From Prorocentrum cordatum (taxonomy: Eukaryota > Sar > Dinophyceae > Prorocentrales > Prorocentraceae): DNA of 64,000 bases. The position numbers were made by a program, and so were the translations under genes. The notes beneath the pieces are model-generated. The model was given only the letters and a program-made list of their open reading frames with translations. It had not been told where the DNA came from and did not search any database. Positions within the stretch are counted from its first letter, which is position 1. The number at the start of each line of letters is the position of its first letter. This document shows positions 26,841-64,000 of the stretch, in pieces. Location of the stretch: the NCBI GenBank assembly GCA_963575745.1, contig CAUYUJ010001381.1, forward strand, positions 418,768-482,767. The letters run 5' to 3'.

Positions 26841-26846
26841 AAACTA

Positions 26847-31966: not shown

Positions 31967-32039
31967 ACTAGCATTCGGCCCATCCCGCCACCGTGCCTGG
32001 GCTGTGGGTATAAAGCCTATGGGATGTTCATAGGGATCT

Positions 32040-32345
32040 CGTGGTGGGTCTCTCAGGGGCCTCTTGAAAGCCTCCTTGGGGCCTCTTCGACGCCTCTTGG
32101 GGCATTCTGGGGGCCTCTTGGGGCGGAAGGCTTGGATTTTCGATTCGTGTTCCCTCTCCTCTCTTGGCCCCATTTCGGGGCCGTCTTTGGGCCCTCTTGG
32201 GCCGTCTTGGGCGCCTGTTGGGCCGTCTTGGGTCGCTCTTAGGCCGTCTTGGGGTCTTGGAGGCCTCCTGGGCCATCTTGCGGCCATCTTGCTTGGGCGT
32301 CTTGGAGCGATCTTGGCGAGGCCCTCTTTGCCAATGTTCAGGGCC
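32040..32345 (+). repeat. CTTGGGGCC-type subrepeats downstream of the satellite
   Basis: Same short words as the satellite body (CCTCTTGGGGC, GGGCCGTCTTGG), but without the unit head. Confidence 0.65.
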
Positions 32346-48623: not shown

Positions 48624-49005
48624 CCCGCCCCTGGTTCAGGTGCGGCGCCCGGGCCGCGCGCATGTCCGCCCCCGGCGCGGCGCTGTCCGGCGCTGCCTCG
48701 CGCCGGCGCCAGCGGCTGGCGGCGGCCGCCCGCTGGGCCCCGCCCGGCCTGGCCTCGGCGGCCAGTCCTGCTGCTGCTGCCGCGGCCGCCGCCTCTCGCC
48801 CTGAGGCCGGCGCGCCGGCGGCGGCTGGCGGCGGCGGCCCCGCTGGCGCGGCCGACTTTAAACGGAGAAGGTTAAAGGCGAGGTATAAATCGAGCATGTA
48901 CCGCTGCCGTGCCTGGCTCAAGCCGGGCCCGGCCAAATATATGACTGTGCCTCACTGAGGCGCACGACTTGCATCAGAGATCGGAAAATACCTTTTCCAT
49001 TGACG

Positions 49006-52000
49006 ATGCCCATCCTATCCTTTACTCCAGATCCCATGCTTCGTCTTGCACTCTTGCTCATGCGATATGAGCCAAAGCCTGGGATATGGCAACGCTTAAA
49101 GCGTAACACATACCTAAGCTTACCAGCTTGTTTTCGACTTGGTAGCGGAGCTGGCTACACTCTCGTGTGGCTGGCTCTCGCTCTGATTCCTGTAATCCAC
49201 GGCACAACTTGGTGGACTACTACTACGGTGGAATACCATGTTGCGCCGGCTCTGCGAGGAGCGGAGCCAGTCCGCGATCGAGCTAGCGGGGCAACCCGCG
49301 AACTCGAGACGCTCTCTCCTACTTCACTGCGCTACTTCACTCCCGACTTCCACCAGATGCCAATCGGCAACTCGATCGAGAACGTGGTCACCCTGCGGGG
49401 CTACCCGCAGCGGGGCCACCTGCATCCCGTGCCAGTCAGGCGCCTCACGGCTACTACGCCAGAGCCTGACAAACCACAGCCTAAACCAATCACCGAAGCC
49501 GAAATGCACATGCATTGGATCAAGATAACTATATTCGGCATTCTGTGGGTAATAATGGGATGTGCTGTGGGATACATGCGGCAGGGGATGGACGACACGC
49601 GTACTACTGGCCCTTCATGGGACCCTGCCGGTACTACGCCTTTTCGCGAATACGTTCGCGAAGTACATGCATGGTTAAACGTAACGAGTGGCAATATGAC
49701 ACCACCACAACAAGCTGCAGCACTACAACGAGGCCTTCAAGGTCTGGCTCGTCGTATCGCCATGCAGGTCCCCTCCCAGATCATCAATTATGGTGTAACT
49801 GTCAATGGACAGCCAACGGATGCAGTAACATATATACTGTACTTACTGAGCACCAAATTTGAAAATCTGGAAGATGAGCGCCAGCTCAACTCTGGCACTG
49901 CCCTTATCGACTTCCGCGTCGAAAGGGGCGAGCGAATCGACTCAGTATTAGCTCGATTCGAGATGGCCCGTGACGAGGCTAACTCTGTTGGCTTTGTCAT
50001 CCCCAACTTTCAGATCCTAACGCTGATTCTCTTCAGAGCGTTAGGCGTTGGCGCGTCACGAGCCCAACACCTGCTTGAGCCCTTCAATCATCAGATGCCC
50101 CGAACACAAGCAGACTATGACAGGCTGCTGACCAGGATGAGGAACTACGGACATGTTGCCGAGCGCTCTCCTGGCAACATAGCGGGTATCTTCACAGGGC
50201 ACCACTCACATGCAGGTGTCTACGCCACGACTGCGGGGTCACCCGCTGGTCCTGGCGAGCCAAATCCCTGGGCTGACCCAGCCGATATGCCCAACGAGGC
50301 CACTGCCCTTTTAGGGCAGACTGGCCAGGCATCGGCAGAGGCAGCTGAGGCGAACGCCTGGTCGAACTACTCGCCAGGCGCCGCCTACACTGCAAGCCCG
50401 CCCTCGGGCACAACCCTCTGGGGCCAAGCGGAGTCATCCGCTCAAGGGTCTCAGCCACCCTCACCGTTTGAATCTGGCACTGACACGGATACCTCATCTG
50501 ACGATGAGCACAATGGCATAGTCTCTGCTGGTAATGACTACCCAGCGGATGACACTCACCTCTCTGAACAACAAAGAGCGGAAGCCGCCTTTATGGCTTA
50601 TCGCAAATCAAAACGCCGTTGGAGGCGCTTTATGAAGAAACCAGTCAGAAAGGTGAGACGTGCAGTACGCCGACATTTCAAACGATTTGGAAAGGGTCGT
50701 GGCAAAGGGGGTCGCAGACGCCGTATGCATGGTAGGGGTATTACTGCTTTCCTCACGTCCTTAACTGATATGGCTTTTGAAGAAGTTCTTATCGGAGGCA
50801 AAGGTCGGGGTCACAGGCGGACCTCCGGTAAGGGAAAAGGGCGGAGGGGCAACCCTAGGGACGCTTCTGGCAATACTATGAAGTGTCATACATGCGGTAG
50901 CACAGAGCATTTGCGCGATCAATGCCCGAAGGGGAAAGGAAAGGGATCCGTACATTTGGCTCAAAATTCTTTTATGGATGACATAGATTACATTGACTAC
51001 GAGTTTTACGTCAATCCAGAAGCGGCTCCCGCCGCGGGCTCCTCCACGTATTACGTGATGGCCCGCTACGCTGAAGCAACTGTAGCCCTGGAAGACTACG
51101 CAGTGACCCTCTTCGACGAGTTCCACGGCTGGGACGAGGTCGACGAGGTCGCGTACAATGCTTGGTTCGGTCTTCCAGCGGGGCCACCCGCCGGCGACGA
51201 GGTCTCCGAAGCCGAGACCGTCCCGGCAACAGAGGAAGAACTCACCGCCGTGCTGGCCCCGCAAGTGATTGGCATGCCGTTGCTGCCAAATCCTTCGTGG
51301 GCTGGTTCGGAGGCGGGAGACGCCGATGACGAAATGCGGGGCCATCCCGCGTATTCCGACTCCGAAGAAGCCGAAGAAGATTATAAGGACATGCTCCAAG
51401 AGCAGGTCTCAGAAGCAATCCGACTCCTGAGTGCGCCAGCACATCAGCAGATAACCATGAACGAACTGCTGTCACACCCAGGAGCTGCACGTCTACGTCC
51501 ATACTTGGATTCGGACATGTCAGCATCTCAGATGCTGACAGCACTCCAAGCTCTAGCGGGGTCACCCGCCGAAGAGACGCCAGACGCAACAGCGGGGCCA
51601 CCCGCTTGGTCTATGGATGTATTCATGCAAGGTTGTGATCAAATGGACATTAACGACCTCACGATGGAGCAGTTAAACGACATCGGGTACTTCAGAAGCC
51701 CGTATCAAAACGTGTTCATGGTCCAGGACAGCTCAGAGGACTCGGAGGACATGCGCTACGCCAAGAGGGACAGACGACCGTCGCCTCCCCGAGACTCAGA
51801 GCATGACGATCAAAGGCCAATGGCACGCGGTAGTGCGTCAGCGGGGCCAGCCCGCAGAAGGAGCCGTTCAGCTCCCAGACGCCCTACACATGATGAGTCG
51901 GGCTATCCATACAGTACTGAGCACTCCGTCGGAGTATCCGCTCAGCATGTGCCGGATTGGTACATCAAATGGTACCCCGGCTACTCGATGGACACGCTTC

Positions 52001-52998
52001 GCCACTGGTATTCTAAGGAGTACTGCACTAAAAGGGACGAAACTGGCGCGATAATACGTACCAAGGGTGGCAAGACCAAGACGCCAGAGGCTTGGGACAA
52101 AAGGGCTAAGAAACAGGAGATCATCAACGATCGCAAGACATACAGGAAACAAGTATGTCAGTGCGAGCCCTTCAAAGGTCACATGCGCAGGTGTCCGATG
52201 GACCGCCCCTCCAGGAGCCCTCATCACGGTGAGACCCCGTGGAATTGGTCTCATGGAGATGACGCTGGCAACGTCCATGATCCTAATAAGGAGGTCCCTG
52301 GAGGAGGAAAGCGCATCACCGAAGCCGATCGTGTCCCTATGACCGAAGAGGTGGCCAACATCGTCAGGGAAAATTGGGTACAGCTTCCCAATGACCATCG
52401 CCTCAAGGAATGGAACCGCCGATTCCATAAAGAGGCGGGGCCACCCGCAGGATCCAGTAAAGAGGCGGGGTCACCCGCAGGATCCAGCAAAGAAGCGGGG
52501 TCACCCGCAGACGCGGCGCCAGCCGCTGGGTCCGCGGACGACGATTGGATAGCTGTTGCATCTGCTGCTGGGTCCGCCGCCGGCACTGACCACACCGAAC
52601 TGAATGAAGAATGGGCGGCGGAAGACGGCTCAGAGAATCCATTCCCTGATGGATGCGCCTGCTGGTACTACAGCTCTTCGGCGCAGAAGTGGTTTTGCAC
52701 GAGGGTAATTCACCGCCATGAAAATGGCAAGTACAAGCTGGCCATAAAAGGTACTGCCGACATCGACCAGATGAGGCAGGTCATCCATGATCATGGCCAG
52801 CCAGAAGGCCCTCCTAGAGACCCTCCTGGTCCACAACCGGGCAAGGGCAGCAGACCACCTCCAAGACCTGAAGGTCACCGACTCCTGCGAAAAGGCACCC
52901 GCCCAAGAGCCCCGAAGGCACACATGGGCGGGCGAAGGCCAGAGGGATCGCCAAGACGGACGACCCTGAGCCGGCAGATCCTCCCGGTCTGTCCGTGA
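49006..52998 (+). CDS. gag: Gag-like protein with CCHC zinc knuckle
   Basis: I chose the ATG at 49006; the open frame extends two codons upstream to a TTG. Two hydrophobic segments in the first ~200 residues (YTLVWLALALIPVIHG; ITIFGILWVIMGCAVGYM) suggest membrane association, unusual for Gag. A helical capsid-like region (about 49650-50190) contains LDERQLN-type charged helices, FRVERGERIDSVLARFEMAR and ILFRALGV, as in copia-type Gag. A basic KGRGKGGRRRR region precedes a C-x2-C-x4-H-x4-C knuckle (50884-50925), expected to bind RNA. The C-terminal third holds CWYYSSSAQKWFCTRVIHR, which looks like a small beta-barrel. From about 52830 frame 3 appears to be the real continuation (KTDDPEPADPPGLSVTERKK), ending at TGA 53100-53102, so the TGA at 52996 is probably a frameshift product. 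Many AGPPA/AGSPA peptides come from embedded hairpins. Confidence 0.85.
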   Translation: MPILSFTPDPMLRLALLLMRYEPKPGIWQRLKRNTYLSLPACFRLGSGAGYTLVWLALALIPVIHGTTWWTTTTVEYHVAPALRGAEPVRDRASGATRELETLSPTSLRYFTPDFHQMPIGNSIENVVTLRGYPQRGHLHPVPVRRLTATTPEPDKPQPKPITEAEMHMHWIKITIFGILWVIMGCAVGYMRQGMDDTRTTGPSWDPAGTTPFREYVREVHAWLNVTSGNMTPPQQAAALQRGLQGLARRIAMQVPSQIINYGVTVNGQPTDAVTYILYLLSTKFENLEDERQLNSGTALIDFRVERGERIDSVLARFEMARDEANSVGFVIPNFQILTLILFRALGVGASRAQHLLEPFNHQMPRTQADYDRLLTRMRNYGHVAERSPGNIAGIFTGHHSHAGVYATTAGSPAGPGEPNPWADPADMPNEATALLGQTGQASAEAAEANAWSNYSPGAAYTASPPSGTTLWGQAESSAQGSQPPSPFESGTDTDTSSDDEHNGIVSAGNDYPADDTHLSEQQRAEAAFMAYRKSKRRWRRFMKKPVRKVRRAVRRHFKRFGKGRGKGGRRRRMHGRGITAFLTSLTDMAFEEVLIGGKGRGHRRTSGKGKGRRGNPRDASGNTMKCHTCGSTEHLRDQCPKGKGKGSVHLAQNSFMDDIDYIDYEFYVNPEAAPAAGSSTYYVMARYAEATVALEDYAVTLFDEFHGWDEVDEVAYNAWFGLPAGPPAGDEVSEAETVPATEEELTAVLAPQVIGMPLLPNPSWAGSEAGDADDEMRGHPAYSDSEEAEEDYKDMLQEQVSEAIRLLSAPAHQQITMNELLSHPGAARLRPYLDSDMSASQMLTALQALAGSPAEETPDATAGPPAWSMDVFMQGCDQMDINDLTMEQLNDIGYFRSPYQNVFMVQDSSEDSEDMRYAKRDRRPSPPRDSEHDDQRPMARGSASAGPARRRSRSAPRRPTHDESGYPYSTEHSVGVSAQHVPDWYIKWYPGYSMDTLRHWYSKEYCTKRDETGAIIRTKGGKTKTPEAWDKRAKKQEIINDRKTYRKQVCQCEPFKGHMRRCPMDRPSRSPHHGETPWNWSHGDDAGNVHDPNKEVPGGGKRITEADRVPMTEEVANIVRENWVQLPNDHRLKEWNRRFHKEAGPPAGSSKEAGSPAGSSKEAGSPADAAPAAGSADDDWIAVASAAGSAAGTDHTELNEEWAAEDGSENPFPDGCACWYYSSSAQKWFCTRVIHRHENGKYKLAIKGTADIDQMRQVIHDHGQPEGPPRDPPGPQPGKGSRPPPRPEGHRLLRKGTRPRAPKAHMGGRRPEGSPRRTTLSRQILPVCP

Positions 52999-53162
52999 CA
53001 GAGAGGAAGAAGGCTTTTGCTGGACCATCGACCCCGATGCCACAGGCGACCCAAGGCGATGTCAAGGACGAAGTTCGCGACAAGCCTCAGGCAGCTTTCT
53101 GAGGTGACTGGACTCCAACTCTGCATCAGCCGCGCCTTGCACCACGACCAGGCTCGGCACGA

Positions 53163-56100
53163 ATGAAAGCGCAGCCGAAGCCCGAAGCTGGGATGAGGTC
53201 GGTGCGGGCAGAAGCGGCCGCCAAGGCTAAGGAGGACAAGGGCTCTGCGGGGCCACCCGCTAAAGCGGCGCCAGCCGTAGCAGCGGGGACACCCGCAGAA
53301 GGCACTCTCTCAAGGGAAGAACGCTTCAGAGTCCTCAAAGAATTTGGCGACCAACAGAAACTAACCGATGATGCAGCTGCTGACGAAGGTCACCCGAACC
53401 CTGGCGCGGAGTCATCCGCAGGAGCTGCCTCGCCAGCCGCAGGCTCTGCTGGGCCACCCGTTAAAGCGCCGCCAGCGGCATTAGCGGGGCCACCCGCACA
53501 CGGGCAGCCAGTAATGTCTGTTCTTAGGAACATCCCTCTGGGAGCCATCGAATACTGGCAAGGCATTGAAGGCAAAGGCCCGAAGCGCACCATAAACCCA
53601 CGAGTCACTCCAGACGATACTGACCGATACGAGGTCATTAATTGTCCTGATCGTCGTAACTTCGAGTGCCGCAACGACTGGGAACGTGAACAACAAACCG
53701 TGGGAAATATGTTGCGAGACAGGCCGCCACTACGCGTTGCGCAGCATAAAGCAGAGCTCCTGAAGGTCATGGAGAGGTTCGGCATGGATCCGACTTTGCC
53801 GCGTGAAGGGCAGATGACCAAGGTGTCAATATGGTTTTCTACAGCCCTACGCCACAGTCCATATTGGAAGGACGGATTCAGCCGACACTTCGAAAAGATC
53901 AGCACTTTCGATCCATACGATGGCTGGGTTGTCGTTGACGATCTGCTGACAAACTGGACTGAAAATGATCAGTGGAAAGGCTATCGTGAAATGCACGAGG
54001 TGCTGATCAAGGGCAGGCCCCACACGTCATACGTGTATTGGGTGCTGCTAAACTGCTGTGAGATGATTGACCATCACGGCATGCAGAAGGGCAGGCTCCA
54101 GATGAAGTGCGTTGAGGACAGCATGCTGCTGCCTCCCAGGTTTCGACCAAAGGCACGCAGGCCACAGTACTTCATCAGAGCCACGAACGGCCACAGCAGT
54201 CCAGGCATCCACTGTCCCGAGTCGCTGTACAAGCCGATCACAACATGGATGAAAGAACCAGACGACCCAGTATATTTCATCCACGGGACACAGTGGGAGT
54301 ATGTCAAGGACATTCTTGCTAATGGCCTTTCATGCCTCGCACAGGACAACCCTAAGAGGAAGGGGGGGCGCCAATTTGTGCACGGCTGCCCCTACCTCCC
54401 GGGCGACCCGAGGATTCAATCGGGCATCCGTCCTGACTCGGAGGTGCTCATATTCTGCAGCATCAACAAGATGCTGTCCAGTGGCTTCTCCCTATGGAGA
54501 TCAGCAAATGACATAGTCATGACACGAGGCCACGACGGACGTATACCGCCCGATCATATCCTCCAGATTGTGAGCATTGCGAAATATCGGGTCGGCGAAG
54601 CCTGGAGCAATCCGCTGGCTTATGACAAGTCGCGGAGGCGGGGCCAACCCGCGGACAGGATTCGCACCGATGACTACCTGCCACTTAAAATGTGTGACAG
54701 AACTCTGGGTGTAATGGAAGATCACGCCATGTACCTAAAGGGCTGGACTAAGACGGACGGTCGTCCATTCAATTTGGTCATGACCGAGCAAGATGTTGCT
54801 CCACGACCGTACGACACACAGACAGTCCTCATGATGAATGCCCAGGAGGACGAGGTCATGCCTGAAGCGGGGCCACCCGCAGGTGCGGGGACACCCGCGG
54901 TAGACACCTCGGACGGTTCATGGCAACAAGTGGTCACACCAGTAGCAACGGTAGCATCTCCTTGGAGGCCGGACCAGCAGTCATGGGTCCAGGCCCTCAA
55001 CAGCCATTTGACATCAGCCGACGTCTCTGGACTAACCGATCAGCTATACCGTGCTGACCCGTGGGCGGTGCATACAGGTATCCAAGACGCACAGCAGAGG
55101 AACCTGCGCCCTCCTGCGGGGCCACCAGGCGTCCTAGGACCACAACCACAACGCCCTCCGCAGCAAGCTGGAGGTGCGAGGTTTGTCCCTATGGGCGGTT
55201 CAGATGGTGGCTCGCCGTTTCGGACTCCGCCGTCTGAAACGAGCGAGAACAGCTTGTGGCAAAGACTCCAGGCGATTCGCGGGAATCCGGCGCTCGCAGC
55301 AGCACTCCAGGCAACCACTCCCTTTGGCACTCCGAGGGGTAGTGAAGGAGGAGTGGCTGCGGGGACACCCGCCGAGCGAACGCCTGCGGAGTCACTCGCA
55401 CATGCGGGGCCACCCGCTGACGGACAGCAGGGTTCAGACTACGAACGTCGGGCAGCCAACTTGAGAGCACAGGCTACCTTTCTGCAGCAACAAGCTGATA
55501 GAGTGCCCAGCCTGTTGCGGAACCGCAACATAGATGTTACGAATCATGGCGACTTTCGGCCTCTCTGGAGCTGGACTTCTGAAGATGCTCCAAATGCTGA
55601 TCCCACGAATCCATATCGACAGGTGTTTATTCCAGGAATAGCATCACACCCAATATATGGATGGGACAATCATGGACCAGCAGAGGCACAGGCCATGGAC
55701 GCGCCGATGTACCCGGAGTACTACGCGCAGATGAATAACACTCCTATGATTGCGGGGCCACCTGCGAACGAATACACTCGGAATCTTGCCAATGAGATGT
55801 TTCGTTTGCAGTTTACACGAGCGGTCGATGCGCAGTCTATGCCGCACTACGCCTACATGCCCACGCCGACGGACCCCGAGACCGTGGTTCAGCCAGCTGG
55901 TCTCGCGGTGCCAGCCGCTATGGGCAGCATGCCAGACTACATCCGCGACGTGCACGACACGCAGCAGGCGATACTGGCATCTAGGCAGCAGGCTCGGGAC
56001 AACGCCAGGCTGCGCCAACAACGCGCGATCCAGAGAAGGATCGAGCGTGAAAACCAAGCGGGGACACCCGCAGACGCGGGGCCACCCGCTGAACGGACAG

Positions 56101-56420
56101 ATAGACGGCCGCCACCGACGCCATATCGGGAGGGCGAAACCACTTTCGAGCGCCAAGCTCGGACTCGCCCAGACGTGCCTGCTCCAGTCAGACTACAACT
56201 TCACACAGTGCCCAATCTGTATGGACACCTACGAGATGGGCACCACAGTGTGGAGACTGGCGTGTGGGCACTTCTTCCACGATATATGCTGGGATCGTGT
56301 TGCACAGCAGCACGTCCGCAATCAGCGGCCAGGTGCGCCAAACGAGGCCCCCTGCGCTGTATGTCGTGGGCCGGGCATAATTACAGCACATTTCCCGCAT
56401 GCTGGACAGCGCGACGCTGA
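53163..56420 (+). CDS. Retrotransposon ORF with Tpt1/KptA-like RNA 2'-phosphotransferase domain
   Basis: This is an ATG-initiated frame of 1085 codons. The phase is open back to the TGA at 53100, so it may be fused to Gag by readthrough. Residues ~222-470 follow the Tpt1/KptA pattern. FSTALRHSPYW (R230, H231) matches the LLRH motif, PYDGWVVVDDLL the GWV segment, and YFIRATNGHS (R339) the IRAxxGHS motif. YFIHGT (H374) is the HGT motif, SGIRPDSEVLIF (R423) the third arginine, and LWRSANDIV plus RIPPDHI the terminal motifs. The Arg-His-Arg-Arg tetrad known for Tpt1 is therefore all present. Tpt1 enzymes remove a 2'-phosphate from RNA splice junctions using NAD+; a ~95-residue insert separates the first and second motifs. 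Residues ~500-990 are Pro/Gln-rich with hairpin-derived AGPPA units. The last ~80 residues are out of frame, because the RING finger is encoded in frame 1. Confidence 0.75.
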   Translation: MKAQPKPEAGMRSVRAEAAAKAKEDKGSAGPPAKAAPAVAAGTPAEGTLSREERFRVLKEFGDQQKLTDDAAADEGHPNPGAESSAGAASPAAGSAGPPVKAPPAALAGPPAHGQPVMSVLRNIPLGAIEYWQGIEGKGPKRTINPRVTPDDTDRYEVINCPDRRNFECRNDWEREQQTVGNMLRDRPPLRVAQHKAELLKVMERFGMDPTLPREGQMTKVSIWFSTALRHSPYWKDGFSRHFEKISTFDPYDGWVVVDDLLTNWTENDQWKGYREMHEVLIKGRPHTSYVYWVLLNCCEMIDHHGMQKGRLQMKCVEDSMLLPPRFRPKARRPQYFIRATNGHSSPGIHCPESLYKPITTWMKEPDDPVYFIHGTQWEYVKDILANGLSCLAQDNPKRKGGRQFVHGCPYLPGDPRIQSGIRPDSEVLIFCSINKMLSSGFSLWRSANDIVMTRGHDGRIPPDHILQIVSIAKYRVGEAWSNPLAYDKSRRRGQPADRIRTDDYLPLKMCDRTLGVMEDHAMYLKGWTKTDGRPFNLVMTEQDVAPRPYDTQTVLMMNAQEDEVMPEAGPPAGAGTPAVDTSDGSWQQVVTPVATVASPWRPDQQSWVQALNSHLTSADVSGLTDQLYRADPWAVHTGIQDAQQRNLRPPAGPPGVLGPQPQRPPQQAGGARFVPMGGSDGGSPFRTPPSETSENSLWQRLQAIRGNPALAAALQATTPFGTPRGSEGGVAAGTPAERTPAESLAHAGPPADGQQGSDYERRAANLRAQATFLQQQADRVPSLLRNRNIDVTNHGDFRPLWSWTSEDAPNADPTNPYRQVFIPGIASHPIYGWDNHGPAEAQAMDAPMYPEYYAQMNNTPMIAGPPANEYTRNLANEMFRLQFTRAVDAQSMPHYAYMPTPTDPETVVQPAGLAVPAAMGSMPDYIRDVHDTQQAILASRQQARDNARLRQQRAIQRRIERENQAGTPADAGPPAERTDRRPPPTPYREGETTFERQARTRPDVPAPVRLQLHTVPNLYGHLRDGHHSVETGVWALLPRYMLGSCCTAARPQSAARCAKRGPLRCMSWAGHNYSTFPACWTARR

Positions 56421-56697
56421 GTCGGAACAAGCGCGCCAGCAGGAAAGGCACGTGGCAGATGCCCGGGAAATGCGTCGGCTACGGGAAGCAGTGGAGGCAC
56501 TAGAGGCTCGACACACTCCGCACGTGCCCCAGCTGCACAGGCATCCCCCTGGCCAGCGCCAGAGCAAGGCATCCAGATGCCAATCCTGCCTACGCTTCGA
56601 GCACAGGAGCCCCCAGCAGCGGGGCCACCCGCCGAAGCGGCTCCCGCCGCCAAAGCGGGGCCACCCGCAATTGGACCTCCGAATCCAGGATTCCTGA
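56150..56697 (+). CDS. RING-H2 finger segment of the retrotransposon (frame 1)
   Basis: Frame 1 reads SDYNFTQCPICMDTYEMG, then WRLACGHFFHDICWDRVAQQ and ending EAPCAVCRGPG (56209-56370). CPIC, then C-x-H-x2-H-x2-C, then CAVC, is a complete C3H2C3 RING-H2, a fold usually found in E3 ubiquitin ligases. It is followed by a charged helix (REMRRLREAVEALEARH). The frame is open from 55750, but that upstream part is a shadow of the previous ORF; the real join is near 56150-56200, where coding moves from frame 3 to frame 1. By about 56610 coding returns to frame 3, shown by the phase of the hairpin-encoded AGPPA units, so the last ~30 codons to 56697 are out of frame. Confidence 0.7.
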
Positions 56698-57806
56698 GGG
56701 CAATGGAGGCCAACATCAGGCGGAGTGGCAGGAGCGGAGGCGGCACGCGCAGGCCGACTGGATCATCCAGGACCTCACGTGTGGCAAGCCCGGTCAGCGC
56801 TAGGAGCCGGGCAAGCGCTGAGAGCGCGGAGGCAGCCCAGTTCCACACCACATTCATGATCGATACAAAAGGGCTGACCTATGCACGTGACGACACGGAC
56901 ACGCTGCCGCCAGGAGGTGAATGGATGTCCACACTCTCTGCGAATTATTGGGTTCTTGAACAGGAACCAATTACCGTAGAGGAGCGCCGCCAATATGAGC
57001 AGATGTGGTGCACCGAGTTAACCATGAGCCAATGGGTGCTTGAACAACGCCTGTTGAAAGGCACACTCGGTTCACAGATTACGTACCACACCGATGACCA
57101 TGGTACGATGGCTCTGGCAGCGCGGAATGGGACATTCTTTCCCGACGAAGACGGACTGCCGTGCATCTCGTTCATGCTAGACATTGGCTCCAACGTGAAC
57201 ATCATTGGAGCCAATACGGCGCGAACCTTCCAGGAGGCTATGGCCAGGTACAATCATAGACCTGCCATATGCACCCTGAGCAAGACCCTCTACATTAACG
57301 GTGTCGGTGAGGGTGCTGCGATATGTCGGAAAATGGGCAACTTCAAGATCGGGGTGCAATACGCCAATGAGGCAAGCCCCCGCATCGAGGAGTATGCCTC
57401 CAACATCGCAGAAGGCTCGGGTGCCAACCTCCCGGCCATCTGGGGCCTTGGTGCCATGGAAGCACGTGACACGATCATCGTGCTGAAGCCAGGCTACCAG
57501 AAGGTTATCTTCCCCAGCGGTGATTACACTCTGAAGCTGGGGAGGGGCGCCAAGGTCCTGAGGGCGAAGAAAACTCCCTCAGGACATCTAGCCATTCCCT
57601 GCGGTTTGTATGACGGGGCTAAAAGCCAGACGGTCACGAACACCTTCACAATCCGCAGCAGTCGAGATGGCTACACCGAGACGGAGAACGAAGAGGACCC
57701 CGTCAGTGCGGGGTGCGGGGCCACCCGCCGGAGTAAGTGCGGGGCCACCCGCCGAGACCACAGCGGGGCAACCCGCGACGGGACAGTCCATGACCGTCAC
57801 GACTGA
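56577..57806 (+). CDS. Retroviral-type aspartic protease segment
   Basis: Frame 3 open frame; it probably continues from the RING segment, so no start is claimed. After an AGPPAEAAPAAKAGPP linker and a Ser/Arg-rich stretch, residues around 57150-57230 read CISFMLDIGSNVNIIGANTA. DIGS stands in place of the usual D[ST]G[AS], followed by the hydrophobic strand expected of a retropepsin half-site. TLYINGVGEGAAICRKMGNF and the flap-like region follow, and a later ATWGLGAM-like hydrophobic segment (IWGLGAMEARDTIIVL) completes the fold. The catalytic Asp is retained (codon 57180-57182), while Ile replaces Thr/Ser at the second position. Such proteases cleave the Gag-Pol polyprotein. The last ~35 codons (from about 57700) are out of frame. 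Confidence 0.7.
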   Translation: MPILPTLRAQEPPAAGPPAEAAPAAKAGPPAIGPPNPGFLRAMEANIRRSGRSGGGTRRPTGSSRTSRVASPVSARSRASAESAEAAQFHTTFMIDTKGLTYARDDTDTLPPGGEWMSTLSANYWVLEQEPITVEERRQYEQMWCTELTMSQWVLEQRLLKGTLGSQITYHTDDHGTMALAARNGTFFPDEDGLPCISFMLDIGSNVNIIGANTARTFQEAMARYNHRPAICTLSKTLYINGVGEGAAICRKMGNFKIGVQYANEASPRIEEYASNIAEGSGANLPAIWGLGAMEARDTIIVLKPGYQKVIFPSGDYTLKLGRGAKVLRAKKTPSGHLAIPCGLYDGAKSQTVTNTFTIRSSRDGYTETENEEDPVSAGCGATRRSKCGATRRDHSGATRDGTVHDRHD

Positions 57807-58185
57807 TACGTACATTGTCGAGCCGTATCTCGACAAGCAGCTCCTGGAAGACACGACCCGTTTGATCGTGGACAGGACGCTGAACAGCTGGTGGGAGGGC
57901 CAACAGTGTCCCGAAGGGACCTGGCCACATATGAAGGATGCCCTGAAGTCTAAGATATTCTGGGCAGTCCAGGAGGCGGTGAATAAATGGACGCCTGAGA
58001 ACCAAGCGGGGCCACCCGCGACACCGCCACCACCACCAAGCTACACGGGCGGAGGTTCGTCGGACTCTGCGGGGCCAACCCGCGTGGAGATCGTGAGCGT
58101 AGCCGCACCAGCGACTCCTGCGGAGCCATCCGCTAACAGCATGCCCCCGAGTCAGACGGCAACGTGGTCACACGACCGCCGCTGA
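57690..58185 (+). CDS. Protease-to-pol linker segment (frame 1)
   Basis: Frame 1 becomes coding near 57700, at three closely spaced hairpins that here read GPPAGVSAGPPAETTAGQPA. A helical unit follows: DKQLLEDTTRLIVDRTLNSW and MKDALKSKIFWAVQEAVNKW. The segment ends at TGA 58183-58185, directly continued in the same frame by the pol reading frame. The open frame starts at 57610, but the part before 57690 shadows the protease frame. No known domain. Confidence 0.55.
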
Positions 58186-58386
58186 CGGGGGCAGGCGGGC
58201 GCGCCGGCGGCGCTCGCTTGCGAAGAGAAGCCGAATACCGGCCTCCTCGCGACATACGTTGGCCGCGCTGAGGCCCGAGAGGAAAAATATCATTCAAAAT
58301 GTCTTGTCATCGAAGATATTCGCACAGCTTGCGCTGAACTCCGAACCCGTGGATATATATGCGACCGGATTACCCATAATGAGGTA

Positions 58387-61300
58387 ATGACTTCAACTGG
58401 AACACAGTATTTGGGAAATTTGTTGGCAGGAGACTACAATATGTTGTGGGTGGCCACACCCTCTGATTGGTACGTTCGTACTCCAGGAAAGAGGGCGGGA
58501 CCACATTATCAACGTATACAAAATCTCCTGATCAAAGCGCGTGCTCTGAGAATGCAGATAGTTATCCTGGGGCCACCCGGGTATTTCTGGAAACAGGGTC
58601 CGATCAAAGATGTTATCGAAGATTTGAAGCTAAGCATTATACGAATCAGACTCTGTCATTTCGGTATCAAGTTTGACCGATCCAGTAAATATCCCAGTGG
58701 TTCTTATATACAAGTTGCTACATCTTGTCCTCATATACCGATAAACTTATGGAAATGTACTTGTGGATCACACAAGGAGCATGATTTGGATTGGTATGGC
58801 CAAGATCAGCAACGTGCCGAGTTTCGGTATAAAACTTTGGCTATTATTATTGCACGCTTCCTTGATCAACTCGATAAAGCCAACATGATCAGGAATGAGC
58901 GGAGTGCGGTACACCTCAGTGTGTGTACACGCGTTGACAAAAAGGTCAGACACTACGTCCAATGTCCACAAAAGGGCCCTCAATGGGACCATGTGGTTCG
59001 TAGAGTCACGACCGACCTGGACACGAACAAGATCGTTCAAGATATTAGAATTCAGGATCAGCCAACTGGGTACAATTATGTAGCTCCATTACCTGATGGG
59101 GTTACAAACATCAGTACTCGGCTATACTGGGAGCCTCCGGCTCCAGTTCTTCATGGCGACGGTGAGTCGCGAAGGCCACGCCCAAAGCGTGTGACGATCG
59201 TCGACGACGATCGATCTCCTCCCCCTTCGATTGAGCGTTGCCAAACGCGACCCACCAACAACCTTCCTGAAATTCCGCCATTTCCTGACTTAACAGCGGA
59301 TTCCTCCGCAGCGGATCTCTCCGCGGAAACTGCGTTGCCCACTGATGCCAGGATAAAACAGAAAGAAAAGCAGAAAGCTGACAAAGAGGCCGGCATCAAA
59401 CCGAAGAAAGTCCCGAAGAAAGTGGAAGACGGTAACGACGACTGTGGAGAGGACCTCAAAGGGCTTGACTGCTCCACATATTTCAACGACGTTCCTCTTG
59501 ACGACTCGGACTCGGACAGCGAATCAGAGGACATCTTCATGATGTTACCGGCGGGGCAACCCGCTGACTCACATGCTGATGTCTTCTCGATGGTCCAGTC
59601 ATTATGCTACGGCAGAAACAATCAAGTGGACATGCTTGAATTATGTGGGGGCAAGGGTGGTATATCCATATTAGCCTTCAAGAGGGGACTCTCGTCAGGC
59701 GGGAACCTTGACAAGATATCTATGGTTGACCTTGGAAACTCGGAAGTACAAAGAGCAGTCCTCCACTACCTCAAGACTTGCTTTGTCAAGATCACGATTC
59801 TGCAGCCAAGCTGCAGAACTACTGGACTTCCCTCCTATTTCAACGCACAGGTCAATCATGATACGTGGCTTAAACACCACAAAGAGGACCTGCCTCACAT
59901 CACGTTCTGTGGAACAGTCGCTCTATTACAAGACGACCTAAGACGTTTCTTTCTCAGGGAACAACCAATGGGCACGTGGGTGGATGAGATCCAGCCATGG
60001 AAGGAACTGGCACAACGCAAGGTCACTTGCCAAACGATTATTGATCAGTGCACGACTGGTCTCAAAGATTCATTTGGACAATACATCCGCAAGCCAACAC
60101 AGATGATGGCAAACAAAGAAGAGTTGTTGGCACCTTTCAGAGGCAAGCGTTGTCCAGGTAATCATGTGCACGCCAATGCTTGTAATAAAGAACTAGCAAG
60201 GGCGGCACAGTATACCTACAGAATGCAGTCACTGATCGTTGATGCGGTGCAAATCGCCAAAGACCTGTTTGCTTACGGTCGCGATCCATTCGCGAATCGT
60301 GAACGCAGCTATGCGTTCGTAACAAACAGTGCTGGCTACGACTTGGACGACCCAACAATCCGGAGACACCCAAACGGAGAAATCTGGCGACCACCACCTG
60401 GCGGTCTTGGGTGCCCTGGCTGTGTGGACAACAACTACAAGCAATCACCAAAGCACAGCAGGGATCCGAAGATGTGTCGGTGGTATGATGTTGAACCGTA
60501 TTACTGGGACTGTCCAAGCTGTAAGAAGGAATATCAGAAGAGCAATCCTCACCACACCAAGATATCTGGCCAATGCAGGTTCGCCGAAAAATGGAAGATG
60601 CCAGATAACTTTGGCCAGCCGCGCCCGGCGGGGCAAGCCGCTCCTGCGGCGCCAGCCGCGGAAGCGGCTCCAGCCGCAGAAGCGGCGCCAGCCGCAAAAG
60701 CGGCGCCGGCCGCGAAAGCGCGCATACGCGCGCCTAGGCCGCCACGGCCTGGTGAGGGCGATCCAACCGCAGGCGCCAGCAGCCATGACATCACCAGAGC
60801 CGACGGGGCTAATGGTGGCAACAGTGGCGCTGGCAGCTCTGACGATCACCGTAGACTGCCGCAAGTTGCAGCAAGGCGCGGACGCATGGAGGGAGGAGAT
60901 CCTCCACCACCGCCGCAGCCTCAAGCAGAGCCGAGGCCAAGGCCAAGGCTCCCTGATTGGACTCGCTTCGACGTTCAGCTCAGCCTCCAAAACCTGCGCA
61001 GCTTCGACCCAGCTGTAGTGCAGCGAGAACTCCGCAAACTCCACCTGAGATGGTTTCATGCCAAGGAGCCAAAAATGCGGATGATTCTAACCAAGGTTGG
61101 TCTGGGTGAAACCCGTTTGAGTCTGATCAAAGGCATTTGTGACTCGTGTAGAGAATGTCGAGCCTGGGACAAACCAGGCAACACGGTGATGCCTTCTGTG
61201 TCACTGCCAGGACGTTTCAACGAGGAAGTCGAATGTGATCTTTTCTTTTACAAACAGGAACATATTGTTTTTCACATCATCGACCGTTGTATTCGCTGGG

Positions 61301-64000
61301 CAGCTGGCACAGAGATTCCTGATAAAGCCATGCATACTGTTCTCGATGCCTATCATACGACTTGGATGCAACATGGCCCTGCTAAAATCTTATACTCCGA
61401 TGGGGAAGGAGCACTGAATAATGATACAGCAAAGGCCATCCTTAAGGCTAAGGGAACAGAGCTTCGTATTCGAGCGCGTGGCCAACACGCTACAACTATC
61501 GAAGCTAGGAACGGCATCCTGCGACACCTCTTACACGTGATGGGAGAAGAATTGAATAGATTAAATATTCCTCTCAATTTCACTCGTCTCTTACATGAAG
61601 CCTTGTTTGCCAGCAACGCATTTACCTTCTACAATGAAGTGTCTCCGTACAATGCGCTGTATGGCAGACAACCAGCTATGCTTCCCGATTTCCCTGTCTT
61701 GGATCATGATCAGTCCGCTGAATCATCAGATCACTCAAGGGAGGAAACAATCAGGAGGGTTAGTCTGGAGGCAATCACGCAGGCCACTGCGGTTGCCAAG
61801 ACGAACAGGGCTCTCCGTACGAAGACTACTGCTACGGGTGAATTTCACTACAAAGAGGGAGATCTCGTGGACTATCATCGCCCGACCACCACGAAAGACG
61901 ACTGGGGTGGATGGAGTGGTCCATACCCGGTCATCCGCAACGAACCTGACCGAGGCCAGGTCATCGTGAAGGTCGGCAGTCGCGAAGTGCGAGTACAGTA
62001 TCCTGACACACGACACACACTGTACATCGAAGCACTTATGGTCCGCGAGATAGGATCGGACAATACGGCCCTTCGGACAGTATTGGCCTTTATTGCCGGT
62101 CTGCCAGCGGGGAAACCCGCCATGACTTTCGGATATCTACCAGCGAAACAGGGTCGGCTGCAGATGACTGCTGCGAGCCGACTTTCGCCTAAGGTGCACT
62201 TGGCTCTTCAGTACCTCATACGCAACTACTTTCGTATTGAAAACGTTGTTGCTGTACGACTTGCCAAGAGCCTGACGAAGTTGCCTGCTGCACCCTATGC
62301 AGACAGCTGTACACTAGTGCACTATGATAATGATGTGACCCCTGGTTTTCATTACTATGAAGCTGATGGCACTGCCTTGAACATCTATGACATCACAGGA
62401 TCTACACACTCACGCATCATCCAGTGTCTTAAATCCAGGAAGCCGTCTGCTGGATTTGACCAAGACCTCACTAAGTTTGAGGAACTCGCTGATGGTCCAC
62501 CACCAAGCGAATCACCTCCAGCAGCTGCTCCTGAGGAGCCTCCTACGGATAACGATGGTCGGCTCCCGACCATCATAGAGGAAACAGAAGAAGATCTGGA
62601 TGCTTTTGTCTTGAAGTCGTGGTATGCTGAACTGATGGATGACAGAACACTCCTTGAAGCTGACACAGAGGAAGTCATGCATACAGTTCCCACATACATG
62701 ACAGACACACAGTGTGTGTTAGTCTCTACGACCTGTGAAGATGTGCAAGGCCACTTGCCGGAGCGGGGTCACCCGCCAGGATACGACATGGACACTTCTT
62801 ACTACGTTCCTTTATGCTCCACGGATCCGGATAGCAAATATGATCTGGACTCCGATGAGCACGGGAAGTACATCGAGCTCTGCTTCACTGCAGACATGTC
62901 CAAAGTCGTCCTGTCCGAGCAGCAACACCGATTGTTGGATGACAGCAGCGTCACAACTATGCGAGTATACGTTAGCGCTGCCTCCAAACGTGCCGTGGTC
63001 GTCAAGGAAGACGATCTACTCACGAAGGCCGACATCCAAGCAAATCCGGTCAAAGTTTCCAAAGCCCTCTACACAGAATTGAAGACTTGGCTTGACAACA
63101 AATGCTTCCAGATGACTGACTTAAGCAAGGCGTCTAACATCATGACGTCACGCTACGTATACAAATGGAAGTTTGTCAAGAACGAAAAGGGCGAAATGGA
63201 AAGGACGATCAGGTTACGCTTGGTACTCCGTGGCTTCATGGACCTTGAAGCCTTTGATGTCGAAACCTTCTCTGGCACGGCAAGGAGGTCAAGCCAGAGA
63301 CTGCTCGCAAGTTCTGCTGCATGCAACAAAGCTTGGATCATCGCTTCCCTGGACATCAACATGGCTTTCTTGAAGGGACTGACCTATGGCGAGCTCGCCG
63401 CGGCAACGGGCGAGAAAGAGCGTGTGGTGTGCTTCACACTACCACCTGGGTCAGCAGCTGTCCTTCGCACACTGCCAGGCTTTGAGTCATATGACGAATC
63501 AAAGCATTGTCTCCGGTGTCTGAAACCGGGGACGGGCACGAAGGATGCTCCCAGGGCATTCTCGCTGAAGCTCAGGTCCATCACTAGGAGCTTTGGGCTA
63601 CAGCCTACTTCATACGACGAAGAGTTCGAGATGAGCCCAAACCTCTTGACAGCCAAGCACGTTGATGACATCAATATGACTGGGAAGGAAGAGGCTATTG
63701 ACAAGTATGTCAAGTGTGTTGAAGATACGTTTGGGAAGTGCAAACTGAACAAGCACACATACACAAACTGTGCCGTTCGGTACAACAAGACCGATGATGG
63801 GAGCGTCACTCTCGATCAGGACGAATACATCAAACAGCTTCGTCCTATCACACATCCAGAACTCACAGGAGCTGATCCTGAGAGCAAAGCGACAAAGACG
63901 ATTTCTGATATGTTCGTCAGTCTTCGTGGCGCTCTAGCCTATGCGTTGATCACGCAGGTATGGCTGATGGTCTATGTTGTCTCACTACAACGTATCCAGG
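58387..64000 (+). CDS. pol: Pol: methyltransferase-like domain, integrase and reverse transcriptase (partial)
   Basis: The frame is open from 58186 to the window edge; the first ATG is 58387, and it is truncated on the right. About 59625-60000 has class I methyltransferase-like motifs: VDMLELCGGKGGIS, MVDLGNS, ILQPSCRTTGLPSYFN and LREQPMGTW. A Cys cluster follows (GCPGC ... CPSC, about 60408-60530). Integrase: a zinc-binding His/His/CDSC region (about 61038-61160), then Asp in VECDLFF (61237), Asp in LYSDGEG (61399) and Glu in TTIEARNG (61501), with 33 residues between the last two, close to D-35-E. Reverse transcriptase from about 63120: RYVYKWKFVKN, SLDINMAFLKG (Asp codon 63352) and AKHVDDINM (63655-63681), where His replaces the Tyr of YVDD. 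The last residues, SLRGALAYALITQVW, match the copia segment before RNase H. Confidence 0.9.
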   Translation, partial: MTSTGTQYLGNLLAGDYNMLWVATPSDWYVRTPGKRAGPHYQRIQNLLIKARALRMQIVILGPPGYFWKQGPIKDVIEDLKLSIIRIRLCHFGIKFDRSSKYPSGSYIQVATSCPHIPINLWKCTCGSHKEHDLDWYGQDQQRAEFRYKTLAIIIARFLDQLDKANMIRNERSAVHLSVCTRVDKKVRHYVQCPQKGPQWDHVVRRVTTDLDTNKIVQDIRIQDQPTGYNYVAPLPDGVTNISTRLYWEPPAPVLHGDGESRRPRPKRVTIVDDDRSPPPSIERCQTRPTNNLPEIPPFPDLTADSSAADLSAETALPTDARIKQKEKQKADKEAGIKPKKVPKKVEDGNDDCGEDLKGLDCSTYFNDVPLDDSDSDSESEDIFMMLPAGQPADSHADVFSMVQSLCYGRNNQVDMLELCGGKGGISILAFKRGLSSGGNLDKISMVDLGNSEVQRAVLHYLKTCFVKITILQPSCRTTGLPSYFNAQVNHDTWLKHHKEDLPHITFCGTVALLQDDLRRFFLREQPMGTWVDEIQPWKELAQRKVTCQTIIDQCTTGLKDSFGQYIRKPTQMMANKEELLAPFRGKRCPGNHVHANACNKELARAAQYTYRMQSLIVDAVQIAKDLFAYGRDPFANRERSYAFVTNSAGYDLDDPTIRRHPNGEIWRPPPGGLGCPGCVDNNYKQSPKHSRDPKMCRWYDVEPYYWDCPSCKKEYQKSNPHHTKISGQCRFAEKWKMPDNFGQPRPAGQAAPAAPAAEAAPAAEAAPAAKAAPAAKARIRAPRPPRPGEGDPTAGASSHDITRADGANGGNSGAGSSDDHRRLPQVAARRGRMEGGDPPPPPQPQAEPRPRPRLPDWTRFDVQLSLQNLRSFDPAVVQRELRKLHLRWFHAKEPKMRMILTKVGLGETRLSLIKGICDSCRECRAWDKPGNTVMPSVSLPGRFNEEVECDLFFYKQEHIVFHIIDRCIRWAAGTEIPDKAMHTVLDAYHTTWMQHGPAKILYSDGEGALNNDTAKAILKAKGTELRIRARGQHATTIEARNGILRHLLHVMGEELNRLNIPLNFTRLLHEALFASNAFTFYNEVSPYNALYGRQPAMLPDFPVLDHDQSAESSDHSREETIRRVSLEAITQATAVAKTNRALRTKTTATGEFHYKEGDLVDYHRPTTTKDDWGGWSGPYPVIRNEPDRGQVIVKVGSREVRVQYPDTRHTLYIEALMVREIGSDNTALRTVLAFIAGLPAGKPAMTFGYLPAKQGRLQMTAASRLSPKVHLALQYLIRNYFRIENVVAVRLAKSLTKLPAAPYADSCTLVHYDNDVTPGFHYYEADGTALNIYDITGSTHSRIIQCLKSRKPSAGFDQDLTKFEELADGPPPSESPPAAAPEEPPTDNDGRLPTIIEETEEDLDAFVLKSWYAELMDDRTLLEADTEEVMHTVPTYMTDTQCVLVSTTCEDVQGHLPERGHPPGYDMDTSYYVPLCSTDPDSKYDLDSDEHGKYIELCFTADMSKVVLSEQQHRLLDDSSVTTMRVYVSAASKRAVVVKEDDLLTKADIQANPVKVSKALYTELKTWLDNKCFQMTDLSKASNIMTSRYVYKWKFVKNEKGEMERTIRLRLVLRGFMDLEAFDVETFSGTARRSSQRLLASSAACNKAWIIASLDINMAFLKGLTYGELAAATGEKERVVCFTLPPGSAAVLRTLPGFESYDESKHCLRCLKPGTGTKDAPRAFSLKLRSITRSFGLQPTSYDEEFEMSPNLLTAKHVDDINMTGKEEAIDKYVKCVEDTFGKCKLNKHTYTNCAVRYNKTDDGSVTLDQDEYIKQLRPITHPELTGADPESKATKTISDMFVSLRGALAYALITQVWLMVYVVSLQRIQ
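59575..60590 (+). other. Methyltransferase-like domain and zinc-ribbon-like cluster within Pol
   Basis: Motif I-like ELCGGKGGIS is preceded by hydrophobic residues. An acidic end of strand 2 (MVDLGNSEV), a PSC in the place of the PC motif of cytosine-5 methyltransferases and REQP in the place of ENV/ENP follow at appropriate spacing. The canonical PCQ and ENV residues are not intact, so activity is doubtful and this is a fold-level suggestion. Downstream, GGLGCPGCVDNN and WDCPSCKKEY with intervening Cys and His could bind zinc. Dinoflagellate copia elements with captured cytosine methyltransferases have been reported in the literature, which makes the assignment plausible. Confidence 0.45.

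Follow-up and report, generated by a model that had tools for sequence, protein, structure and literature searches.

What maintains dozens of short hairpins within the coding sequence of a retrotransposon? This question was raised by a stretch of 64,000 nt of Prorocentrum cordatum DNA, here called the window (assembly GCA_963575745.1, contig CAUYUJ010001381.1, positions 418,768 to 482,767 of the forward strand). The window harbors the 5' 15 kb of a copia-type long terminal repeat (LTR) element of about 16.4 kb in a genome of 4.13 Gb. An earlier note, made from the sequence of the window alone, had described a covarying hairpin family within this dinoflagellate Gag-Pol element, and both shuffled sequences and related elements confirmed this description. 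In this dinoflagellate copia clade, dozens of hairpins are spread over the sense strand, beginning shortly behind the 5' LTR and ending shortly ahead of the 3' LTR. They are maintained by selection on nucleic acid structure, and a stem may change provided that its two sides do so jointly. The coding sequence accommodates them, with AGxPA in one reading phase and x-Gly-Asn/Asp-y with reverse-complement codons in another.

Hairpin number in the window compared to chance

About 43 copies of a GCGGN-loop-N'CCGC unit had been claimed for the window. A direct scan revealed 44 perfect stems between 49261 and 62776, with a loop of 4 nt in 39 and of 5 nt in 5 copies. Three of the 44 fall between open reading frames (ORFs), and 5 perfect stems were found in the 48.9 kb upstream of the element. 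The codon-preserving shuffle proposed as a check was carried out by permuting synonymous codons, 300 times for each of four ORFs. The observed counts were 15, 11, 6, and 9, compared to means of 0.71, 0.71, 0.41, and 0.73 and maxima of 3, 3, 3, and 4 in the shuffles. Stems of any sequence with loops of 4 or 5 nt numbered 29, 23, 8, and 43 in the four ORFs vs. 12.9, 10.1, 3.8, and 16.6 after shuffling. When only the 5' arm and the loop were used to pick sites (GCGGNGNNA), the exact complement followed in 38 of 48 (directly in 33, one base later in 5). At the upstream sites it followed directly in 0 of 23.

The covariation of the fifth stem position was borne out as well: 39 of 41 sites with 4-nt loops, selected without that pair, were paired there. 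The association was significant in Fisher's test for G-C vs. the rest (p=8e-10) and for C-G vs. A-T (p=0.001). The earlier tally of this pair held for G-C (31) and A-T (6), but C-G occurs 7 times instead of 6. Tandem hairpins were spaced by 18, 24, 30, or 36 bp. Phase 0, which reads as Ala-Gly-x-Pro-Ala and its partners, comprises 39 of the 44 copies; not two, as stated before, but five copies lie in a different phase (49286, 49395, 51336, 54638, 62763). The triplet at 57715-57776 only seems to be out of phase because the reading frame changes there.

The unit: a GNNA loop on a changeable stem

The unit is a 5-bp hairpin (sometimes 7 bp) with a GNNA loop, to which one base is sometimes added, and its stem sequence is changeable. 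The loop is GNNA in 33 of the 39 four-nt loops and GNNA+N in all five 5-nt loops, a feature missed in the earlier note. Within the element, 42 of 1039 GNNA tetramers are closed by a 5-bp stem, compared to 37 of 14070 other tetramers and to 1 of 2599 GNNA tetramers upstream of the element. Thirteen further GNNA hairpins have other stems; one overlaps the array at 60646-60713 and one is located in the LTR. Once every GCGG copy and eight near copies had been masked, we counted 8 GNNA hairpins with other stems vs. a shuffle mean of 0.89, and none of 300 shuffles reached this number. Loops of the window family are mostly GCCA or GTCA, and GCCA is also dominant in hairpins outside phase 0. At four GCGG copies (51022, 56637, 59296, 59311) both loop ends are changed to give TNNC, and the antisense strand reads GGGA, GGAA, or GAGA (GNRA); the pair 59296 and 59311 was found in other copies of the element as well.

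Codon usage was analyzed in 38 phase-0 copies with 4-nt loops, including two in which the fifth position is unpaired. Codon 1 ends in G and codon 4 in C in 38/38 copies; elsewhere, 70 of 385 Ala codons are GCG and 55 of 359 Pro codons are CCC. Codon 2 ends in G in 33 copies and in T in 5, and codon 3 in A in 33, in C in 4, and in G in 1. The fifth codon has its third position just one base beyond the stem, and this position is free (T 11, G 7, C 8, A 12). Since synonymous sites are locked inside the hairpin and free just outside, peptide selection cannot account for the hairpins, which had already been called hard to explain in this way. Plain peptide repeats as the motif were ruled out by the same synonymous sites.

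Copies of the element and related families

To follow the hairpins through copies of the window family (family A) in the same genome, 57 window sites were compared to 11 copies, two of them partial and one segment stemming from L013; 15 indel-bearing matches were set aside. Stems diverged at 37 of 5490 bases (0.67%), loops at 77 of 2280 (3.4%), and flanks at 2153 of 41018 (5.2%), and no two-sided stem change was seen in 2745 pair comparisons. Paired LTRs of 287-289 bp are present in two copies (C1, C2). Because the LTR divergence within these two copies is about 1%, decay after insertion appears sufficient to account for the stem differences. In C2, about 16.4 kb lie between the LTRs, which are 98.96% alike (L011:829-1115, L012:6950-7236), and the hairpin array runs on past the window end to the 3' LTR.

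A comparison with related elements had been suggested in the earlier note, and family B (loci L013, L014, L015, L035, and L036, the first three 77-92% alike) keeps stem complementarity with other stems and other peptides. Per 10 kb it has 27-28 perfect GNNA stems and 0-1 TNNC stems, with 10-13 different stem sequences per copy and mainly GAAA, GCAA, and GAGA loops. Orthologous sites were compared in ordered pairs of the 5 copies, so that one event is counted several times, with 6 indel matches set aside; divergence was 3.5% in stems, 7.9% in loops, and 14.1% in flanks. On the same ordered-pair basis, 51 of 2745 comparisons showed two-sided changes, 46 of them Watson-Crick and 5 not. Among the rows listed, with L013 and L014 as references, five sites were compensated and one was uncompensated; the swaps were G-C/A-T, C-G/G-C, and C-G/T-A. 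In three copies, 12/17, 6/13, and 13/17 hairpins with a frame assigned by homology are in phase 2. Most of these encode x-Gly-Asn/Asp-y, where the codons of x and y are reverse complements (LGNE, RGDP, RGNP, RGNA, PGNR, QGNL, RGNS, HGNV).

Family C (L017, minus strand) has 10 GNNA stems vs. 18 for all loops besides GNNA and TNNC, and its near stems comprise 12 with one G.U and 3 with one A.C. On the plus strand of the loci L016 and L018, GNNA loops are not in excess, and the trait is absent from these loci. On their minus strand, a few reverse-oriented GCGGG palindromes with GCTA loops are present; those at L016:7696-7904 form a short series within a long ORF of the plus strand that matches copia distantly. 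L001-L008, L016, L018, L037, and L038 were left out of the family counts. No DNA of relatives was found in the viral_contigs and genome_contigs collections.

Strand and nucleic acid form

The data favor RNA, rather than DNA, as the target of selection, and the sense strand. The five family B copies have nearly all GNNA loops on the coding strand. Among hairpins with a single non-Watson-Crick pair, the ratio of G.U to A.C was 24:8 for GNNA loops vs. 79:105 for other loops (pooled p=0.001). By family it was 8:4 in A (p=0.23), 4:1 in B (L013; p=0.15), and 12:3 in C (p=0.018), thus significant singly in C only; of the four remaining B copies, only L015 tilts toward A.C (4:5). In the window we found 8 G.U sites vs. 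3.0 in shuffles (reached by 2/200) and 4 A.C sites vs. 3.9. This excess of G.U without an excess of A.C therefore points to sense RNA. Seven of the eight G.U sites keep their form in the matched copies: 49249 in 4/4, 58567 in 11/11, 60244 in 8/9, and 63162 in 9/9, besides 49410, 55752, and 55905 (Table 1); the eighth, 53265, varies.

The same signature was counted in 4.128 Gb of the genome (21,875 contigs; repeat counts are lower bounds). GCGGG-GNNA-CCCGC occurs at least 14,835 + 16,145 times vs. 1,680 + 1,710 for the reversed pattern, and GCGGA-GNNA-TCCGC at least 2,793 + 2,902 times vs. 146 + 146. The intermediate, tallied in its G.T form, occurs at least 747 + 781 times (1,528) vs. 392 + 401 (793) for the control. 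In 30,980 of 63,186 GCGGG-N4-CCCGC places (49%) one strand reads GNNA, compared to the 12.5% that uniform loop bases would give.

Imprint of hairpins in homologous proteins

Before DNA of any relative was available, recurrent homologue peptides such as HGNV and DPGNRI had been interpreted as GNRA hairpins of another phase. The reading of HGNV was then borne out, as family B codes for it by GCACG-GAAA-CGTGC. In the proteins P0001-P0022, 44 of 112 variable-position G[ND] sites have flanks capable of reverse complementarity vs. 21.4 expected (0/5000 shuffles), in a test that was framed after the data had been seen and whose sites are not mutually independent. Eight of nine control dipeptide classes were at chance in this test and one gave p=0.03. 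More distant homologues were also at chance (P0023-P0097: 132/742, expected 122, p=0.16; P0104-P0125: 39/218, expected 40), so that the trait belongs to this clade. An earlier test anchored at G[ND], likewise designed post hoc, gave 49/112 vs. 31.5 for inner, 40 vs. 29.6 for outer (p=0.017), and 21 vs. 8.5 for both positions; within-protein shuffles yielded p=0.009, 0.040, and 0.006, respectively.

Relatives contain about 14 groups of recurrent dispersed peptides, eight of which were put through a hairpin-fit test. A GNNA hairpin of at least 5 bp fits four groups (AGxPA, DPGNRI, HGNV, TVSTV), and none fits the other four (EPAVG, ESSP, GILP, TA..RP). Random peptides fit by chance in 2.0% (5-mers) and 3.8% (6-mers) of 4000 samples each. 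Hairpins also lie gap-free in conserved protein sequence, at 62107 (AGKPA), 58448 (VATP), and 61778 (ATAVA).

Structure of the host element

The coordinates of all features are compiled in Table 1. We take the CCHC knuckle of the first ORF to be a Gag-type motif; the family B homologue matched PF00098 with E=0.0013, under the cut-off of the model. The Tpt1/KptA domain is encoded by family B too (E=2.1e-19). It sits inside the copia polyprotein, and the family B ORF with this domain also carries a RING finger. For the integrase, the window ORF gave no model match at E 0.001, and some homologues carry PF00665. The ORF4 segment at 59600-60000, with ELCGG and QPSCRTTG, presumably resembles a methyltransferase fold; it had no Pfam match at E 0.001.

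The reading frame of the window copy is broken at about 52,875-53,102 and again near 57,600-57,800. The relative P0101 is a single protein across the first break. This protein, filed under a Myxococcales metagenome-assembled genome, matches the window Gag with 90% identity along half the query length and is therefore very likely a dinoflagellate contamination. P. cordatum proteins are 98-100% identical to the second ORF over 118-126 residues. An Rfam scan of the window gave 0 matches at the gathering score, and a tRNA scan of it was likewise empty. Upstream of the element, 26846-32328 contains tandem duplications of about 1 kb that are rich in TCTTGG repeats.

Table 1. Features of the element in the window (plus-strand coordinates)
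Feature	Position	Strand	Remark
5' LTR, ~288 bp	48852-49139	+	match to both C2 LTRs; 3' LTR beyond window
Gag-type ORF	48889-52995	+	CCHC knuckle 50884-50925
GCGGA-GCCAG-TCCGC; GCGGG-GCAA-CCCGC	49261-49275; 49286-49299	+	first GCGG hairpins past LTR
CTGCGGG-GCTA-CCCGCAG, 7 bp	49393-49410	+	
Imperfect GCGGG-GCCA-CCTGC, one G.U	49410-49423	+	form unchanged in 9/10 matched copies
TGAGC-GCCA-GCTCA	49875-49888	+	perfect in 9/10 matched copies; hairpin also at matching LEDERQL peptide in family B
Hairpins, GTCA; A-T pair, GTCA	50233-50246; 50428-50441	+	
Hairpins, C-G pair, TCCC (GGGA on opposite strand); GCCA	51022-51035; 51178-51191	+	
GCGGG-GCCAT-CCCGC	51336-51350	+	reading phase 2
Hairpins, GTCA; GCCA	51556-51569; 51592-51605	+	
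GCGGG-GCCAG-CCCGC	51841-51855	+	
Four hairpins	52435-52526	+	52435, 52465, 52495 G-C; 52513 C-G
GCCAT-GAAA-ATGGC	52715-52728	+	perfect in 5/11 matched copies
Hairpins 53247, 53283; imperfect 53265 (one G.U) between	53247-53296	+	53265 in 11 copies: other single G.U 7/11, perfect 2, mismatch 2
Hairpins (first: A-T pair)	53406-53419; 53484-53497	+	
Tpt1/KptA RNA 2'-phosphotransferase domain	53919-54530	+	PF01885 E=4.5e-16; PDB 7yw3 E=1.6e-13
GCGGG-GCCAA-CCCGC	54638-54652	+	reading phase 2
Hairpins 54867 (GCCA), 54885 (GACA)	54867-54898	+	
Hairpins 55359 (GACA), 55404 (GCCA); 55386 imperfect	55359-55417	+	
Imperfect hairpins, one G.U each	55752-55765; 55905-55918	+	form unchanged in 11/11 matched copies each
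Hairpins 56058, 56076; CGAGC-GCCAA-GCTCG (56147-56161)	56058-56161	+	
Hairpins 56619, 56637 (C-G pair, TCCC loop), 56655	56619-56668	+	
Three hairpins, 24-bp spacing	57715-57776	+	
Hairpins 58006, 58069 (GCCAA), 58120 (A-T pair)	58006-58133	+	
GGGTG-GCCA-CACCC	58448-58461	+	within conserved protein sequence; perfect in 11/11 matched copies
GCGTT-GCCA-AACGC (59235); 59296, 59311 (A-T pair)	59235-59324	+	loops of the A-T pair copies TTCC, TCTC
GCGGG-GCAA-CCCGC	59551-59564	+	
GCAAG-GTCA-CTTGC	60017-60030	+	perfect in 9/9 matched copies
GAACGCA-GCTA-TGCGTTC, 7 bp	60301-60318	+	inner 5 bp perfect in 6/9 matched copies
Tandem array, four C-G hairpins (AAPAA repeats)	60646-60713	+	loops: two GCCA, one TCCA, one GCCG
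AGGCC-GCCAC-GGCCT	60736-60750	+	perfect in 5/9 matched copies
GCGTG-GCCAA-CACGC	61476-61490	+	perfect in 9/9 matched copies
CGCAG-GCCA-CTGCG	61778-61791	+	within conserved protein sequence; perfect in 9/9 matched copies
GCGGG-GAAA-CCCGC	62107-62120	+	at AGKPA peptide, shared with P0001 and P0013, gap-free
GCAAG-GCCA-CTTGC (62745); GCGGG-GTCA-CCCGC (62763)	62745-62776	+	flank 7-residue gap in closest relative P0001
Copia-type reverse transcriptase (RVT_2)	63097-63876	+	PF07727 E=1.8e-10

Possible function of the hairpins

The explanation that we tentatively favor is that the hairpins are dispersed recognition signals for an RNA-binding protein encoded by the element, most likely Gag, for packaging. 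RNA packaging or folding was also among the roles offered in the earlier note. Since the host is an LTR element, Gag would be the natural reader, putatively by way of the zinc knuckle or the capsid. With many weak sites on the 16-kb RNA, Gag could select, compact, and co-assemble its own RNA, and the family-specific loops (GCCA/GTCA in A, GAAA/GCAA in B) may act as family-specific addresses. It is possible, although we hold this wider view with more doubt, that the whole coding sequence is a covarying, family-specific RNA address code. In such a code each element RNA would have about 55 hairpins, each family would have its own loop and stem signature and its own Gag as a reader, and amino acid pairs throughout the proteins would be forced into reverse-complement codons.

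Several observations weigh against this picture. The argument for packaging is built on anatomy and on analogy with RNA viruses. In-context folding prefers the hairpin at 30 of 44 sites, not at all of them, and the window has no GCGG hairpin 3' of 62776, where reverse transcriptase is encoded. The four GCGG copies with TNNC loops weaken a strictly sense-strand reading. Outside the GCGG copies, TNNC-loop stems were also somewhat more frequent than in shuffles (3 vs. 0.67; reached by 10/300), as were stems with the remaining loops (22 vs. 14.1; reached by 4/300). One-sided changes between copies were split evenly, with A.C 18, G.U 14, and other 5 in the window family, and G.U 33, A.C 31, and other 27 in family B; we read them as mostly decay after insertion. 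A.C sites keep their mismatch (55094 and 59064 in 11/11, 59680 in 9/9, and 60537 in 7/9 copies), as do 55386 (A.C, 10/11) and 60628 (G.G, 9/9). Because A.C sites persist like G.U sites, persistence across copies cannot separate RNA from DNA.

A dedicated reader may not be needed if the GNNA loops dock into helices or kiss and thereby compact or dimerize the 16-kb RNA, or if the hairpins protect it against nucleases or silencing. They occur densely over the whole element, and the loops of family B are mostly GAAA, GCAA, and GAGA, which are classic docking tetraloops. The window family, however, prefers GCCA and GTCA, in several reading phases, and to our knowledge these are neither classic docking nor extra-stable loops; we consider this explanation rather unlikely. 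The family-specific loops, together with GCCA beyond phase 0, favor a partner that reads sequence over stability alone. This reader could also be a host enzyme or an enzyme of the element other than Gag, such as the Tpt1/KptA-like domain, which is encoded by both families A and B. The domain was undetected in the scanned slice of family C, however, and we know of no Tpt1 substrates that call for dispersed hairpins, so that such a reader seems improbable. An effect on translation, with hairpins slowing ribosomes between protein domains, would be in line with the many hairpins in variable linkers. Five base pairs are a weak barrier for a ribosome, though, hairpins also lie within conserved domains, and a fixed loop is required; this role seems improbable as well.

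The arms could also be complementary without any function, if a mutational process kept them so, for example when template switching in reverse transcription corrects palindromes. Such a process is able to produce both covariation and the tandem gains at the spacings given above. It explains neither the GNNA loops nor the sense orientation, and it predicts near-neutral two-sided drift, whereas two-sided changes amounted to 0/2745 in family A and 51/2745 in family B with flanks diverging by 5 and 14%; we regard it as very unlikely. Mobile palindromic mini-elements pasted into ORFs, to which the earlier note had likened the hairpins after Rickettsia, would fit the extra residues compared to P0001 at 59296-59324, 62745-62776, and 60646-60713. 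This likeness was not upheld: stems are many (10-13 per family B copy) with only the loop class in common, orthologous sites are compensated, and hairpins lie in gap-free conserved peptides, which leaves a pasted origin highly unlikely. Selection on the peptides, as linkers or protease sites, might be expected from AGxPA, which is small, flexible, and recurrent in linkers. With synonymous sites fixed, other phases giving other peptides, and different peptides in relatives, we practically discount it. Recognition by Gag for packaging remains the explanation that we prefer, tentatively.

Comparison with known systems

Rickettsia palindromic elements and the GC clusters of yeast mitochondria are in-frame mobile palindromes. 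The hairpins described here are also short palindromes within ORFs that keep the frame open. Unlike those elements, they have no common pasted sequence, share the loop class and not the stem, and occur as compensated orthologues, not as transposed copies. Among dinoflagellates, the excerpts of PMC5890265 describe DNMT-bearing retrotransposons of Symbiodinium, of long interspersed nuclear element (LINE) and tyrosine-recombinase types, which are likewise retroelements with accessory domains. The words hairpin, palindrom-, and stem-loop are absent from the main text of that paper, and hairpins of this kind in a retrotransposon, whether of a dinoflagellate or not, appeared in none of the titles and abstract beginnings of open-license PMC papers that were listed.

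In the psi region of human immunodeficiency virus 1, the stem-loops SL1 and SL3 (GGAG tetraloop) have short hairpin loops by which Gag selects RNA, according to parts of PMC12789967. The hairpins of the P. cordatum element would resemble retroviral psi in their short loops and in having Gag as the putative reader. In psi of murine leukemia virus, the loops are GACG. The density differs from that of retroviral psi, with one hairpin per about 270 bases in the window to 360 in family B, element-wide.

Dispersed stem-loop packaging signals are described for RNA viruses (MS2, satellite tobacco necrosis virus, parechovirus, hepatitis B virus) in excerpts of PMC6281560, PMC7612645, PMC5431903, and PMC3593212. 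As in PMC6281560, so far as its excerpts go, many short stem-loops are distributed genome-wide, with a common loop motif and varying stems, and the MS2 loop motif xxYA resembles GCCA, GTCA, and GACA; the bulged A that MS2 needs is absent from the hairpins described here. Also unlike in the RNA viruses, the host is an LTR retrotransposon, its reader is putative, and the hairpins are overt, nearly perfect, covarying, and imprinted in the proteins. RNA shape thus constrains the coding sequence enough to dictate amino acid pairs, so that analyses of these elements that consider proteins only may be misled. In RNA viruses, the degeneracy of dispersed packaging signals makes them, in our view, difficult to recognize. 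Overt, covarying hairpins that can be counted over many copies and families make the reader and the divergence between families directly testable.

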